Shown in pieces: positions 41,175-63,214 of a stretch of DNA of 64,000 nt (the stretch's first letter is position 1; each line of letters starts with the position of its first letter). The stretch is taken from NCBI GenBank assembly GCA_038093975.1, contig JBBPTG010000004.1, positions 310,001 to 374,000 on the forward strand, given 5' to 3'. A program made the translations under genes and the position numbers. The notes beneath the pieces are model-generated. The model was not told the DNA's origin, searched no databases, and saw only the letters and a list, made by a program, of their open reading frames with translations. The stretch comes from Chalciporus piperatus. Lineage: Eukaryota > Basidiomycota > Agaricomycetes > Boletales > Boletaceae.

Positions 41175-41183
41175 TAGTGTTGC
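41175..41183 (+). repeat. hAT terminal inverted repeat, left
   Basis: TAGTGTTGC, the perfect nine-base core of the terminal inverted repeat, inverted at 42857-42865. Confidence 0.9.
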
Positions 41184-41186
41184 AGT

Positions 41187-41291
41187 CGAAGTGAAGTGAG
41201 TTCGAAGTCTACTTCACTTCGATTCACTATTCAGCACTTCGTGACAGCGAAGTGAACTATAATCCGCATCGAAGTGGCATCGAAGTGTGGC
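41187..41291. repeat. Left subterminal GAAGTG motif cluster
   Basis: Within about 105 bp the hexamer GAAGTG or its complement CACTTC occurs at least six times, in both orientations, with further partial copies (AAGTG, CGAAG). This is the pattern of hAT subterminal repeats bound by transposase. Confidence 0.75.
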
Positions 41292-41619
41292 GCTGCAACA
41301 AGCATTGAAGCAACAGATTCTCCCATCTGCAAAGCGAGAATTGGCACTGCAAGCAGGCATGTCGGACTACCATCGGCCAACTACCAAAGGTCATTCCATG
41401 TCTCCGATACTATGGCAGGTATAGCTACGAGCGAATATCATGATTAGTCCACAAGGCCCTGTTCAACAGACCTGAGATCGCGCGGATTCGCGCCTAGAAA
41501 ACGGATAAAACAGTAGCGATGCCAGCGAACGAACACCTCCATCGCCTGGCACGATGTGAGTCGTACGCTATGAACCCAGTGAAAACCCACCTCCTCATGA
41601 GAATCTCTCTACACCTGGT

Positions 41620-41967
41620 GTGTTTCCTGTTCCCGTTGGTTCGACAACATCCATTACTCCTGATCATGCGTTTTACCCCGGCGCTCCTGGCCCCAACTCG
41701 GCACCACTTTATGTGCATTATCCACCAGCCACATTTCATCCCCCCCGCATCTCATTCCGAGTCCTTTCTCCCACGAGGTTACGACCTCGTGATTTGCAGG
41801 ACAGGCTCCTCTCCAGATTGACCCAAGCCTCTCCAGCTCGGCTGCAAGTCGAAAGAAAAATCTTCAATAACCAGCAGCAAAAAAGCAAGTCCAAAACCCA
41901 CCAGCCCATACGTCAGTTTCGAGCATCGGAAAAACTGCGACAACATGTGGTGGGTCCAGTCGGGTAA
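41620..41967 (+). CDS. Proline-rich frame inside the hAT element
   Basis: A 115-codon open frame whose first half reads SITPDHAFYPGAPGPNSAPL and YVHYPPATFHPPR and then becomes basic. The proline-rich wording continues upstream of the listed Met (EPSENPPPHENLSTPGVFPV), so the Met is probably not the true start. It is not a hAT transposase domain I recognise. It may be a spacer region of the ancestral transposase gene or a captured host exon. No evidence for expression. Confidence 0.25.
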   Translation: MFPVPVGSTTSITPDHAFYPGAPGPNSAPLYVHYPPATFHPPRISFRVLSPTRLRPRDLQDRLLSRLTQASPARLQVERKIFNNQQQKSKSKTHQPIRQFRASEKLRQHVVGPVG

Positions 41968-42028
41968 GCTCTGCTGAGCCAGGCACCACTGTGGCGAAGG
42001 CAGCGCTGTCACGCAAAGGTATGGACGT

Positions 42029-42703
42029 TTGCAAGGACTCGCGACGATTCGTCGTTCTGCATCCTATTCAAGATTGAGTGCAACTGCTCCCGTATCAACA
42101 GAAACTGCAGGACATTCGACAGAGGAATATCCATCACCTCAGCCAACCCCTCCCATCCTCTCACCTGAAGAGCGCGAGCAGCAGGAGGTGTCCACTCAGG
42201 CAAATGACCGGAAGGTGGCGGAGTGCGAGCTGCTCAGGTACGAAGCGGAGGACGCAACAACTTACGGCTCGTCCGAACGCAGCAAAAATGACCTTGTACG
42301 ATTTTGGGAGGTGCGTAGTTTAATACTGGCTCAGCATCCAATCCCACTCATCTCGCAGTTGCAGCTGCATGAATATGTCTACCCTTTGCTCTTTCGTGTT
42401 GCCATGGATATCCTCCCCGCACAGGCGTCCTCGGTTCCTTGTGAACGCGTCTTTTCATCAAGCAAGGAGACTTGCACTCTCCGACGGAACAACCTCTCCC
42501 CGAAGCTGATGGAAGCACTCCAGGTCACTCTGAAGTTCAAGTACAAGCAGGAAGGTCTCTCTTTTACCTCGGATCTCGTTGCAAGCCCACTAGACTACAG
42601 TATTACTGAGATCACTGATTATGCTGCTCGTGAAGTGATTGCTACAGGAAACGTCGAGGAGCTAAATGATCTTATTACCAACCATTGTAATGACGATCTG
42701 TAG
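42029..42703 (+). pseudogene. hAT transposase C-terminal fragment
   Basis: Encodes the dimerisation end of a hAT transposase: DLVRFWEVRSLILAQHPIPL, then FRVAMDILPAQASSVPCERV, then FSSSKETCTLRRNNLSPKLM and EALQVTLKFKYKQEG. The ASSVPCERVFSSSKETCTLRR core is highly characteristic of this domain (Dimer_Tnp_hAT). The N-terminal BED finger and catalytic core are absent, removed by internal deletion of the element. The N-terminal 80 residues are Ser/Pro/Glu-rich. The frame is open from 42029 to the stop at 42703, so a short protein could still be made and might act as a dominant-negative or dimer partner, but that is speculation. Confidence 0.85.
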
Positions 42704-42759
42704 TTATCCTTACTATCTAGTCACGATGTAATTGGCTGGGAAACGCCGGCCCATTTTTC

Positions 42760-42857
42760 TCTCACTTCGAACTCACTTCGAAGTGCACTTCGTCCCACTT
42801 CACAAAATCGAAGTCAAACGAAGTGCCGCTTCGAGTTCACTTCAGTTCACTTCGCGG
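42760..42857. repeat. Right subterminal GAAGTG motif cluster
   Basis: CACTTCGAA, CACTTCGAAGTGCACTTCG and further CACTTC or GAAGTG copies, about nine in 100 bp and mostly in the orientation opposite to the left end. It mirrors the left cluster. Confidence 0.75.
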
Positions 42858-42865
42858 CAACACTA
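42857..42865 (-). repeat. hAT terminal inverted repeat, right
   Basis: GCAACACTA on the plus strand, the exact inverted complement of the left nine-base terminus. Confidence 0.9.
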
Positions 42866-57565: not shown

Positions 57566-57573
57566 TACAGCGA
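57566..57573. repeat. Target-site duplication of the large element, left copy
   Basis: TACAGCGA, directly before the left terminal inverted repeat; an identical copy is at 63207-63214. Eight bp fits hAT, KDZ or Mutator-like transposition. Confidence 0.9.
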
Positions 57574-57596
57574 GGCAGTTGGTCTATAGGTGTAGG
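57574..57596 (+). repeat. Terminal inverted repeat, left
   Basis: 23 bp starting GGCAGTTGGT; its partner at 63184-63206 differs only at position 11 (C here, T on the other side). Confidence 0.9.
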
Positions 57597-57599
57597 CCA

Positions 57600-57612
57600 G
57601 TTAGGTCCTAAC
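57600..57612. repeat. 13-bp palindrome near left end
   Basis: GTTAGGTCCTAAC is a perfect inverted repeat around a central T, 3 bp inside the left terminal repeat. Related half-sites (CCTAACCTAG) lie about 20 bp further in. Possible transposase or regulatory site. Confidence 0.55.
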
Positions 57613-57785
57613 CGGAGTTTGAAACCTAACCTAGCACGGGCCGGACGGGCCGACGTAAAACAATTCGGGGGAGCAGCCACTCGAAGGTAGCGCGATCCGC
57701 GTCCTCGTCAGAGAGTTCGTTCCGCGCCCTAAATTCAGCGCACAACACAGAGAGTCACGCAAGTTACAACACAGGAAAACGAAGT

Positions 57786-60700
57786 ATGGAGTCAGCCGAA
57801 CCTACACCGCCCGTCAAACGGGCGCGCGGTCGTCCTAAGGGCAGCAAGAACAAGGCGACGGCGGGCAATGTTGGCAGGCCGCGCAAAGATGGGCGCCCCC
57901 CTCAGAAAACGGATGTACAAGAAGCTACCATCCGACGTTCAGGTGTGCAGTCCCGTCGTAAATTACTTTCCGGCAGGTCATCCATGCTTATCTCTGATTT
58001 TCTTTCTCAGCGCCTGTTCGTGACGTCGGTCCATCCCGAGCGCCCGTTGATACCCCCCCGCGGGGGCAATCTGCCACTGATAGCGGTCCACGAGAAAGCA
58101 GCACGGTGTCCACGTGCAGCACGCAACCAGCTCTCTCGAAGAGCTTGTCTCAATCCCCCACGGCCAGCGGCTCTCTCGAGCCATACAACTCCGTAGTACC
58201 CAACGTACCCGTAGTACCCAACGCCGACTCGCGAGGTGCTGAAAGTAAGTCAGTCAAAATTCGGCTACTCTAATGAACTAACAGACGTGGTGGGATCATA
58301 GCACCCTCTGTGACTGGGCACAATGCGGAAAATGTCCAGACGTCTGAGTCCCCTCTGCCCATTTCCGTTCCGAGTCCATCGGCACCTGCTGAGACATCTC
58401 GACCAACCCATGACCAAGTTCATCCCCTCCGAGTCCTGTCTGATCTGTTTACGGGGCCCGTCGAACGTGGCGGTGCAACAAACCCTGCCCGGCCTGCCAC
58501 AACGACTCACAAACAGCCATGGCGGCACGACATCAATGTTCCTGCACGACCGCCATCTCCGATCGCTCCTGATCAACCTCAATCTCACCAATGGCAGGAT
58601 GAATTCGCACGTGAGTGTTTCGACCTTTTTAGTCGCGTAATGTCGCTTACCGTTTCAATACTTAGATATCGGAAACATCCATGGCTCCGACCTGGCATCG
58701 GACGTTGATGATCCCACCACGGCGGAGGTTGATGAAGACAAGGACGAGCTGGACGAGGAGTTCCGACTGCGAGACGGCGAAGACGACATGGCAGAGGATG
58801 GCCTATCGTCGTTACCTACGGGGGAAACAGGACCGCGGCTTCACCGTGGCACACTTCCCTCGTGGTTGGACAACCACTACAAGACCGTCGAGACCATGCT
58901 CAAGAATGAGATCGAGAAGAGCAAGTGTAATCCCGCGCGACCCAAGTGCTACGAGGAGGGGCGATTCTCCGTGTGGGACATGTCGCCCGTGTTGACTTTG
59001 GTCACCCAGCCGAACATGATACTGGAACCGAACATATTCCACCGTCCATCGTTCTTCGTCTGGCTGCCCCATTGCCTGCTTGGGGACCGCATCCCGTGTC
59101 CCCATTGCAAAGCAAACAGTCGGCGTGCATCAAACGGGCGGCCGGTATTCCTTCAGAAGCTCGGATGGGTTGGAAAGCCACGTCGGGTGGTAGATCTCGA
59201 CCGGAATGTATATATCATAGGCTACCGCTATCGCTGTGGAGTGGCTGAATGTCGCAAAACGTACCGCAGCTGGAGCCGCCCCATTCTTGACGTCCTTCCC
59301 CCAGCAATTTCATCGCAATTTCCATTTCAGCTCACGTACCGCAGTGGACTTTCGAATCGTGTTGCTGAGCTGCTTCGTAGCTCGATCCGAGCAGGCACGG
59401 GTCCTGCTTTATTCACTGAAATGCTCCAGTCATTCCATTATCAGCACTTCGATGAACTCCATCTGCAGTACCTCGAGATGGTCCATGACCGTTACAAAGG
59501 CTGCCCAAATCCAAGGCACTTCTGGGTCCAGAAGCCATCGTTCGGGTCCTTCTCCGATCGGGATGGATACAGTGGCTTCATTCCTAGCCAGGGCTATTTC
59601 CGTCGTTTCTACGACATGCTCATTGAGCGGCACACGCGCGAGATGAAGCAATGTATTTCTATGCTTCCTGCGCAAGTTCTCGCAATTGACCATAGCTTCA
59701 AGGTCTGTGAACATCTTGATTGCTGATACAGGGGACTGACTCAGATCTGCCGGCAGATAATCAAGAGGCTTGGAAGGGTCGGGAACGCACCCCTATTTGC
59801 AGCATTGCACACGGTCACGAACGAGTATGCTGAAATTCGGTCGATGCTCTTCACGATGACCAAGGGTCATGACCAATACATCCCGAATCTACATGAAATC
59901 AACTCCTCGCTCAAGATGTTTGGCCATCCCGAGGTTCAGGCTGTGTTTACGGACAATGTACGGGCCGACAAGGATGAAGTTCAGCGTGCCTTCCCGTCAC
60001 TGTTGAAGGATGTTGTTCCAGTTCCTACTCACAGTGAGCTGCCTCCCCTCGAGTTTCCACGTCAATCATGGAGCGTCGTTGAACTGTCGACTGCCCATCA
60101 AGTCAACTTGCGCTTCGACATCATCATGAACAACCGATCTCCGGAGAATCCCTCGGTTGCTGTGGCATTTGATATGGAATGGCCTGTCGACCTTTCGACT
60201 GGCATCCAGGGGCTGGTAGCTGTCATTCAGATTGCTTATCTTAATACGGTCTATCTTGTTCGGGTCAGTGAAGACTGTGTCATATGTTGTTAGTGCTGAC
60301 TTGAGAATTATACTAGACAATCAACTTCATCCGTGATGGTTATATCCATCTTCCCCACTCCTTCCTCGCTTTCATGCGGTCACCTTGCTTCCTGAAGGCA
60401 GGCGTGAACATCCACGCCGACTTCAAGAGGCTCCAGCGAGACTGCGGCCTCAGTTCAGCTGCTCAGCCTTTTGTTGGTCAGGTTGAGCTTGGGGGTATGG
60501 CGAAAGCACGAGGTGTGCAGATCAAGAGGAATGCAAGTCTTGCTGATTTGGTTGCACTCCTCCTCCAGAAGTATCTGCCCAAGGATCCACAGATTCGTGT
60601 CAGTCCCCGATGGGGGGATAGTGTGCTTGTGCCCGAGTTCATCCAATATGCCACCCTCGATGGATTTGCCACCCTCGCTGTCTACCTCCACCTTTCCACC

Positions 60701-63079
60701 ATGCAACCTGTCTCGGCTGTTACTTCTCACACGCCATGTGGTACACGTGTTGTACTTGTCTCTCCCGATGGGAGGCAAGTTGCCCGTGGAATCATTGCCA
60801 CTGAGCAGCCAGCTGCTGTTGATGGTGTCAATGTGACCTCGGCAAGAACGGTGATGACGGTGTCTCATGTCCTTGTTCCAGGCTTCCTCATCTCTGCTAG
60901 TCTATGCAAAACCCATCGTGCCTCGCCACTTTCATCCTTCGGCAGTCCTCCCTTCAACCTTGTCACCACTTACAGCAGTCTTCGCATATGTGCTATTTCT
61001 GGTAACGACACTGGGAGCGTTACACCTGCCCTTACCCTCACCCCTGCATTGGAACCACAGGAACTGTCCACGTTACCACTTTCTGCTGATGCTCCTCAAA
61101 TCCCAGACTTGACAACTCCAGAGACCATGCCAGATTACTCCGAGTCCGACCTGGTCACCATGGATGATGGCCGTGAAGCTGATACTAGTAGTGGCGAAGA
61201 TGATAGTGGCGAAGCTCCTGATGCCCCTGAGCAGTCACTTGAGGGCTCTGTTCGAGACCCAGTTGCGGAAGTCATGTTGGGTCAGCTGATGGAGACTTAT
61301 GCAAACTCTTCCGGGCTCCCAAATCCAGTCATCCGAACTCGTGTCGTATATGACAACTTCCACTGTCATCACCAATTTCCGATCTCCCATCAGCATGGGC
61401 TCCGTCGACCATTCCACCGAGCTCTCACCTCCGCATTTTTCATCCCTGTGGCTGAGGATAAGGCAGCTGTCGAGACAGTATTGAAGAAGTACCAGACATC
61501 CTATGAGTCGCAGATGCTATCGAAGCCCAAGTGGATGTTGGCCCGCATGCGACGTCACGTTCCGCCACCGGAGATCCTTCTTCCCCGAGTTGCAGATGTC
61601 CTTAACACATACGGGCCATTGAAGGATGCGAAAACAGGAGAGCCTCTTTTCAACACTCGCGCGTGGGAGGTTGCGAAGAACGTGATGGAGAACGTTCGAC
61701 TCGGTTACTATTCCGATCCTTTGGGTGTCGAGCTCTATTTCAAGACGGGACAAGATCGCGACGGATTGACGCTGTACCGTTGCTGTCGTGGGACAAACAG
61801 TGTTGAAGGCGGTGTCCATCAGAACCTCATTCGCCGCTACAACTCCTTCAATTCATCACCCGAACACGCGATCAATGTACTACTCGATTACGCTGTGCGG
61901 CACAACATGGTGGTCAGGCTTTTGCATTATCAATCTGTGATGTTGCATCTGATTTTCGATCCAGGTCGGGACGTTGAATCGCACAGGCAAAGCATATGTC
62001 GGCCATTTCCATGTCGCCCTCAAGAACCGCATCACGAGGATGCTCGACCTCACGCGGGATGCAATGAAGCCCAACCCAACTGTCCGGGGTGGTTGGGTGA
62101 ATGGCGATGACTATGCACCCGTGAACGAGACGTTCGGCATGATTAGGCTTCCCTCAACCTTCTTCAAGCCACTCGGGATGTTCGATTTCAGTGCTCAATA
62201 CGCCCTTGATCAGAAAATCCGCTATCGCTACATCGCCGAGCATCAAGGCACACTTCTTCCCGTTCTCCCGGTTCATACTCGTGAAGAACGTGATCTCTTT
62301 CAGCTTCTCGCCAGCTCATCTCCTCACTTCTCGGATTCTCGCCTGCAACCGAACTGGAGCGCGCTCGCAAGTGTCTGGTCAGGGCATGCCGACGGAAAGA
62401 CGATATTCTACAAGGTATGTGGTACTACTAGTGTCTACTATACTCCAGCACTCGTGATTGATGCTCGGGGACCCTGCAGCTTCCTGAGCACCTCAAGGCC
62501 TATTACAAGATATGGACCGACTTTTGCAACGAACACAATACCGTTGCACTCAATGCAGATGCCAGCCGACGCATCCGCGCACTCGTCCGCAGCGCGAGTA
62601 GCTCATCCAATGTCCAAGTGCCAACTGCACTGCCGCTTACCGTGCGCGATTCCTTGACGGTCTCGCCAAGTGTCGACATCGAAGAAATCAACTCTTGGCA
62701 GATTACGAACCTCCTCAACAGCCATTCCCTCCAACAGTCGGCTCTACTCTATCTGTATGCAGATACAGTGGCACCTCAAACATCGAGCACAAAACCTACA
62801 GCCAAGCAAAGTACTAGTAGTACGAACCCGAAGAAAAGAAAGTCCCCGCCAGCGGCCGAAGCAAGTACCACCAACACCGACCCCGGACCCTCTAATTCGA
62901 AGCGCGCGCGCGTGCGTCATTGCGTCAACTGTCGTAGTGCCGAATGTCCAGGGCGGTGGAGCTCGAGCAAGTGCCGTCTTCCTCGCAGACCGGTAGTAAG
63001 TGCTCGTTCGTATGTTCTCGCTGTTCACTCCAAACTGAATAAGGTCAGGATTTACGGTGACTTGCAGATTTGTCTTTAG
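57786..63079 (+). CDS. DDE transposase fused to DEDDy 3'-5' exonuclease, with AT-hooks and Zn region
   Basis: Spliced product of about 1,600 residues from roughly nine exons, with no premature stop. (1) Two AT-hook-like motifs at the start: RARGRPKGSKNK and VGRPRKDGRPP. (2) A disordered Ser/Pro region with a six-residue repeat (VVPNVPVVPNA), then an acidic block. (3) A conserved DUF6729-like region: LPSWLDNHY, then IPCPHCK and YRCGVAECRKTYRSW (paired Cys, likely zinc). (4) RNase H-fold Asp in VLAIDHSFK, joined by a 42-bp intron (59703-59744) to ICRQIIKRLG; second Asp in AVFTDNVRADK. (5) A complete exonuclease: VAFDMEWPV (DxE), GVNIHADFKRL (D), QYATLDGFATL (YxxxD). (6) CCRGTNSVEGGVHQNLIRRY, the presumed final Glu. 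(7) A Cys-rich basic tail. Catalytic assignments are inferred by motif. Confidence 0.87.
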
Positions 63080-63125
63080 GTCACGCCTGTGGGATCGAGA
63101 ACGAGCGTACAGATTGTGTTTGATG

Positions 63126-63146
63126 GTAGGGAGCTTCGCTCCCTAC
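63126..63146. repeat. Perfect hairpin near right end
   Basis: Nine-base-pair stem (GTAGGGAGC with GCTCCCTAC) around a TTC loop, just after the transposase gene stop and before an AT-rich run of TTAATTAA-like sequence. It may be a transcript 3' structure or a transposase recognition feature. Confidence 0.75.
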
Positions 63147-63183
63147 AAATTAATTTTAATTAATTTTTTAAATTTTTGTCGTA

Positions 63184-63206
63184 CCTACACCTATAAACCA
63201 ACTGCC
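63184..63206 (-). repeat. Terminal inverted repeat, right
   Basis: Inverted partner of 57574-57596, 22 of 23 bases identical. Confidence 0.9.
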
Positions 63207-63214
63207 TACAGCGA
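63207..63214. repeat. Target-site duplication of the large element, right copy
   Basis: TACAGCGA, identical to 57566-57573. Confidence 0.9.

Follow-up and report, generated by a model that had tools for sequence, protein, structure and literature searches.

A Chalciporus piperatus DNA transposon whose predicted DDE transposase carries a DEDDy-type exonuclease domain

Anatomy of the element and its gene

The window analysed in the present study is a stretch of 64,000 nucleotides of Chalciporus piperatus contig JBBPTG010000004.1, and it contains a DNA element of 5633 bp (57574–63206; coordinates are those of the window unless a contig is named) whose long gene encodes a predicted transposase with an exonuclease domain. 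The element is flanked on both sides by the 8-bp target-site duplication (TSD) TACAGCGA, the left copy (57566–57573) and the right copy (63207–63214), neither of which is assigned a strand, being identical at 8/8 positions. Its 23-bp terminal inverted repeats (TIRs), located at 57574–57596 (5′, plus strand) and 63184–63206 (3′, minus strand), match at 22/23 positions. We scanned the whole window for 8-bp duplications with at least three different letters that lay 150–12000 bp apart and were accompanied by 12-bp inverted ends with up to two mismatches. Two pairs were obtained and the element's pair alone reached 20/23; 20 first-order Markov shuffles of the window gave four pairs in total, all weak, with 0 reaching 20/23. 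A first-pass annotation, made from the letters of the window, had noticed 23-bp inverted termini, a perfect 8-bp duplication and one long open spliced gene at this position, and all of these were confirmed as real, the gene as a predicted frame of nine exons and 1609 amino acids.

The transposase gene runs on the plus strand, as do all of its parts, from an ATG at 57786 to a TAG at 63079. Its exons (57786–57942, 58011–58244, 58302–58610, 58666–59702, 59745–60263, 60317–61912, 61965–62414, 62480–62995 and 63068–63079) are separated by eight short GT..AG introns, the splicing being predicted from the sequence. The repeats GRPKGSKNK and GRPRKDGRPP (57825–57905), which we take to be AT-hook-like, recur in the majority consensus built from 19 relatives. 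Two Pfam families matched the protein at E≤1. The first, DUF6729 (E 1.3e-15; residues 334–513, 58965–59504), contains the zinc-finger-like cysteine residues C378, C381, C424 and C429. The second, DNA_pol_A_exo1 (PF01612; E 1.5e-8), covers residues 718–880 (60159–60700) and corresponds to a DEDDy 3′–5′ exonuclease domain with the residues D722, E724, D787, Y863 and D867, split by the intron at 60264–60316. WRN was the nearest to this region among PDB sequences, which, together with the fold of a relative, supports the earlier assignment of a WRN-type exonuclease to the same protein. The predicted catalytic residues of the transposase lie on either side of this domain: D575 (AIDHSFK; 59688–59690) and D649 (FTDN; 59952–59954) before it, and E1249 (TNSVEGG; 61805–61807) after it, preceded by the DxxH motif DNFH (residues 1098–1101; 61352–61363). 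The C-terminus bears the sequence pattern of a zinc-knuckle-like CxxCx4Cx8C motif (residues 1582–1599; 62921–62974).

Copies in the host genome and insertion sites

The host genome assembly (35.5 Mb, 484 contigs) was searched for further copies and empty sites, as the first-pass annotation had proposed; both were obtained, with the TSD of the second copy left unproven. This second copy, on contig C34, was 99.6% identical with the window copy over 3258 bp and 98.8% over 1066 bp. Its 5′ flank differed from that of the window copy, it contained an in-frame stop and an inserted piece of ~800 bp, and its contig ended before the 3′ end of the element. The inserted piece (L005:5255–6053) had TGTTACG..CGTAACA ends with a 5-bp GATGG repeat, and is presumably a solo long terminal repeat. 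The 5′ flank of the C34 copy, which was partly repetitive (20 matches), recurred on contig C222 over 1121 bp at 99.8% identity, running 9 bp past the first base of the element, beyond which C222 continued into other sequence and not into the element. C222 is an empty site for the C34 copy, allelic or paralogous. Thus the second copy and its empty site show that the element family has moved. For the window copy no empty site was found in the host genome, because each of its flanks matched there once. A TIR match on contig C49 had three mismatches, the same level as a reversed-pattern control.

More distant kin were present on contigs C12 (two), C240, C16, C249, C9, C317 and C47, and DUF6729 matches above the Pfam cut-off numbered seven in the host genome compared with 0/14 control genomes. 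When the ends of the C12 pair and of the C240 copy were examined, no clean TSD was seen; the C249 copy had TIR-like ends, for which a matching TSD was not found. The two C12 copies (L044 and L045), of a related family, were 99.7% identical and abutted head to tail with no spacer or clear TSD. The C9 copy (L049, C9:399500–407885) ran at the end of its contig into an inverted duplication of 1972 bp, perfect in its match and either biology or an assembly artefact; it was not used as a source of element ends.

The window copy lies upstream of an RPL6-like gene, which we take to encode ribosomal protein L6, at 214 bp from its start codon, and at the C222 empty site the first ATG lies 72 bp downstream; a promoter preference cannot be claimed from only two sites. 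Rfam searches of both window flanks and of the 5′ flank of the C34 copy gave no match at E≤5, and no transfer RNA (tRNA) gene was detected in the joined window insertion site, both searches being run with no positive control. A histone H2A-like stretch at the window site was considered as a possible target and dropped because the flank of the C34 copy gave no support. Elsewhere in the window, a second candidate element (41175–42865) showed the 8-bp duplication GGCCTGGT, TIRs beginning TAGTGTTGC and an open stretch of 241 amino acids with what we take to be a motif resembling the hAT dimerization region; it is probably a non-autonomous hAT.

Relatives, transposase core and exonuclease domain

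Three protein searches, in each of which ~8000 candidates were scored, gave 22, 38 and 14 matches, amounting to at least 72 different proteins; relatives may be missing because of this number of candidates. The nearest relatives of the window transposase were from Boletales, and all those bearing an organism name were fungi, namely Agaricomycetes, Mucoromycota (e.g. Circinella) and the chytrid Phlyctochytrium, the rest being metagenome proteins. DUF6729 was in the precomputed domain lists of 18/22 matches of the first search and 31/38 of the second. The source names shown were ‘hypothetical’, ‘uncharacterized’, ‘3′–5′ exonuclease’ or ‘DUF6729’, and none contained ‘transposase’, in agreement with what the first-pass annotation had stated. 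Two Mycena proteins (P0030 and P0031) were listed with PF00012, presumably the HSP70 family, alongside DUF6729, and may be gene-model fusions.

Structural models of two relatives showed a transposase core with the RNase H fold, of which the region holding VLAIDHSFK, suspected earlier of being RNase H-like, forms the first strand. A fold search with the whole P0042 model had exonucleases among the matches listed, and a model lacking the exonuclease, that of P0063, was needed to reveal the transposase core. This RNase H core with a helical insertion had ISCth4 as its best structural match and Hermes as a middling one, which we take to be members of the IS256 and hAT families respectively. According to these models, the core is a D-D-E RNase H of the IS256/hAT type, in which the exonuclease and a β-rich domain are threaded between β4, carrying the second aspartate, and the DxxH strand, beside the active site. 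Both folds expected from structure prediction were thus recovered, in the models of relatives rather than of the window protein. P0063 (Apophysomyces ossiformis) has DUF6729 and the full D, D and E, with ~50 residues from the second aspartate to DxxH and no exonuclease; a phmmer search with it against PDB sequences gave no match at E≤10. The D-D region of chytrid P0072 matched ZSWIM1-3_RNaseH-like weakly (E 1.2e-4, below the curated Pfam cut-off), a link that is only suggestive.

We then compared the residues in an alignment of 60 rows (P0001–P0059 and the window protein). The first aspartate of the core was conserved in 51/60 rows (seven gaps, one glutamate and one cysteine), the second in 57/60 (two gaps and one cysteine) and the glutamate in 48/60 (12 gaps). 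The exonuclease residues were more variable, with the first aspartate present in 32, the glutamate in 48, the second aspartate in 34, the tyrosine in 52 and the last aspartate in 33 of the 60. The C-terminal motif, with four cysteine residues and no histidine, was present in 11/60 rows, some rows being partial proteins. D, D and E were all present in 40/60 rows, and the remaining 20 were excluded from the count of exonuclease loss. In these 40 full-DDE rows, the aspartate and histidine of DxxH were conserved in 36 and 39 respectively; the four DUF6729 cysteine columns were conserved in 20, 28, 34 and 35 of 40 rows (gaps 11, 11, 6 and 4).

All five exonuclease residues were retained in 22 of the full-DDE rows, three or four in four rows (P0017, P0019, P0020 and P0045) and two or fewer in 14. 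When the exonuclease was left out of tree building, a single branch of 14 rows, all Mycena by name, was recovered with 100/100 support. Thirteen of them keep two or fewer exonuclease residues and P0045 keeps three, so that at least two are missing from each row, with D, D and E retained. The usual changes were of the first aspartate to serine or alanine, the second to asparagine or threonine (retained in P0045 and P0048) and the last to asparagine. A further inactive row, P0005 (Boletus), lay elsewhere in the tree, and P0055 (Mycena, lacking the E region) had an exonuclease that looked intact apart from the tyrosine. Mycena is over-represented, the second search having been seeded with a Mycena protein, and the gene models are automatic. 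Exonuclease identity was then measured at matched DDE divergence for 13/14 inactive-branch rows and 21/22 intact rows, leaving out pairs outside the bins; the 35–50% bin held intact pairs only. Mean identity in the inactive branch was 0.487 (five pairs, 50–60% bin), 0.557 (47 pairs, 60–70%) and 0.646 (13 pairs, 70–85%), compared with 0.498 (54 pairs), 0.536 (25 pairs) and 0.609 (12 pairs) respectively for intact rows. Inactive and intact rows of matched DDE divergence thus had similar exonuclease identities, and the domain is still constrained without its active site.

The Mycena branch argues, by its residues, that exonuclease catalysis may not be essential everywhere. The losses in all 14 of its rows, together with loss of at least one catalytic residue in P0005, P0017, P0019 and P0020 and the exonuclease-free P0063, would suit a passenger exonuclease, one that plays no part in transposition. 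Retention of the five residues in 22/40 rows and the similar conservation of the domain in inactive and intact rows speak against this, and we consider a passenger unlikely. We favour an exonuclease that takes part in transposition, as follows. The transposase would pair the 23-bp TIRs, binding through its N-terminal AT-hook and DUF6729 parts, and the D-D-E core would cut and join DNA at positions staggered by 8 bp. The exonuclease would hold 3′ ends, and perhaps trim them, at junctions or at the break in the donor; its access would have to be restricted, or its substrate would be the flanking strand, since the joining strand would be destroyed if the exonuclease could attack the transposon 3′ ends freely. 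The exonucleases of the Mycena branch may only hold 3′ ends or serve as spacers, and this branch fits a main role in DNA holding or in shaping the complex.

Assignment to Dada and comparison with other transposons

Dada transposons, as described by Kojima and Jurka in 2013 (PMC3706591; this and most other papers below are cited from passages of them), encode a DDE transposase with DxxH and N-terminal CCCC and C-terminal CCHC fingers, have TSDs of 6–7 bp and, where ends are defined, sub-terminal inverted repeats and no TIRs, and insert into small nuclear RNA (snRNA) or tRNA genes. The Laccaria and Ectocarpus Dada transposases, the only ones for which those passages name an exonuclease, have a DEDDy exonuclease proposed to process cleaved 3′ ends. 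The central idea was therefore already in print, and the first-pass view that the family was not widely recognized as mobile is not supported; taken as a whole, that interpretation is partly supported. Like Dada-1_LB and Dada-2_LB (Laccaria bicolor) and Dada-1_ES (Ectocarpus siliculosus), the window transposase has a DEDDy exonuclease between the second aspartate and DxxH, a DDE core with DxxH, an N-terminal CCCC, a C-terminal cysteine-rich motif and introns. With target-specific Dada (Dada-U6, -U1, -tL, -tA and others) it shares the D-D-DxxH-E order and zinc motifs, and the spacer-free tandem arrangement reported for Dada-U1A is seen in the related C12 family of the host genome. The D-to-D spacing is 74 compared with 68 in Dada-U6_DR, from which the N-terminal cysteine spacing also differs, and the C-terminal motif has four cysteine residues where Dada has CCHC.

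Taken with the TSD, TIRs, second copy and empty site, which support the earlier reading of a mobile DNA transposon, and with the residue conservation and the folds modelled in relatives, these likenesses indicate that the element very probably belongs to the exonuclease-bearing Dada-type lineage, as a DNA transposon that is intact and looks autonomous. Several points weigh against this. The 23-bp TIR is borne by only two copies in the host genome, the C34 one broken, and since the 3′ junction of the latter is not seen, there is one complete insertion only. Both folds are modelled in relatives, the exonuclease activity is predicted from sequence, and the P0063 gene model may be faulty or reflect real exonuclease loss. 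Dada-1_LB, Dada-2_LB and Dada-1_ES were compared by description and not by alignment. Against Dada with defined ends, the element has TIRs rather than none, an 8-bp rather than a 6–7-bp TSD, and no detected RNA-gene target where target-specific Dada use snRNA and tRNA genes; no ends were met in the passages for the three exonuclease-bearing Dada. A profile hidden Markov model search of the Marasmius oreades genome for Dada gave no well-supported multiple hits, as reported in part of PMC8290104.

The same differences in TIRs, TSD and sites without Rfam or tRNA matches would be expected of a separate superfamily that independently gained a DEDDy exonuclease at the corresponding position within an IS256/hAT-like core. 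This seems quite unlikely given the order of parts, which is that of the Laccaria Dada (N-terminal four-cysteine motif, exonuclease between the second aspartate and DxxH, C-terminal cysteine residues), and given Ganoderma leucocontextum, the source of P0011, for which many Dada sequences have been reported (PMC8955403). It is scarcely credible that this is a host gene for a WRN-like repair exonuclease, one that was domesticated or had never been mobile and lies by chance between short repeats, as the ‘3′–5′ exonuclease’ labels given automatically to several relatives might suggest, since the perfect TSD, the TIRs, the second copy, decayed kin and the stricter conservation of D/D/E than of the exonuclease site speak against it, and the C222 empty site led us to set it aside.

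Within the Dada-type assignment, we tentatively suggest, as a possibility short of probable, that Dada-like elements with an exonuclease form a pan-fungal lineage, using TIRs and 8-bp TSDs, that lost or never had RNA-gene targeting, in which the exonuclease was at root an end-holding module with optional catalysis and became in Mycena a conserved pseudo-exonuclease beside an intact D-D-E. At least 72 proteins filed as hypothetical, DUF6729 or ‘3′–5′ exonuclease’ are now tied to a mobile element family. With defined ends, and with naturally occurring forms of the inserted nuclease, some intact and others inactive, the role of a proofreading-type exonuclease inside a DDE transposase becomes testable.

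ISCth4, which is bacterial, and Hermes share the RNase H core with a helical insertion, and to our knowledge neither has an exonuclease domain. hAT elements have a Pfam transposase domain and hAT-type ends, and the Kyakuja-Dileera-Zisupton (KDZ) group has a Pfam transposase domain of its own; the window protein matched neither at E≤1. An 8-bp TSD would suit Zisupton or Dileera (TSD 7–8 bp; PMC12730594), and membership of KDZ, like that of hAT, drew no support from Pfam. Other DNA transposons with exonucleases are KolobokD (DEDDh), KolobokE (λ-exonuclease-like) and ISL2EU (a separate YqaJ exonuclease) (PMC9587614 and PMC4482050), which differ from the window element in nuclease type or in having a separate protein, the passages on them not stating a placement inside a DDE core. 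The word exonuclease is absent from the passages of a follow-up on fish Dada (PMC8869645), and no mention of DUF6729 was found in the literature searched. Compared with these systems, and as far as our searches reach, what is new is the link of Dada-like transposases to DUF6729, the ends, TSD length and empty site now defined for an exonuclease-bearing Dada-like element, and a Mycena branch with an apparently disabled exonuclease, an intact D, D and E, and a domain conserved about as well as in intact rows.
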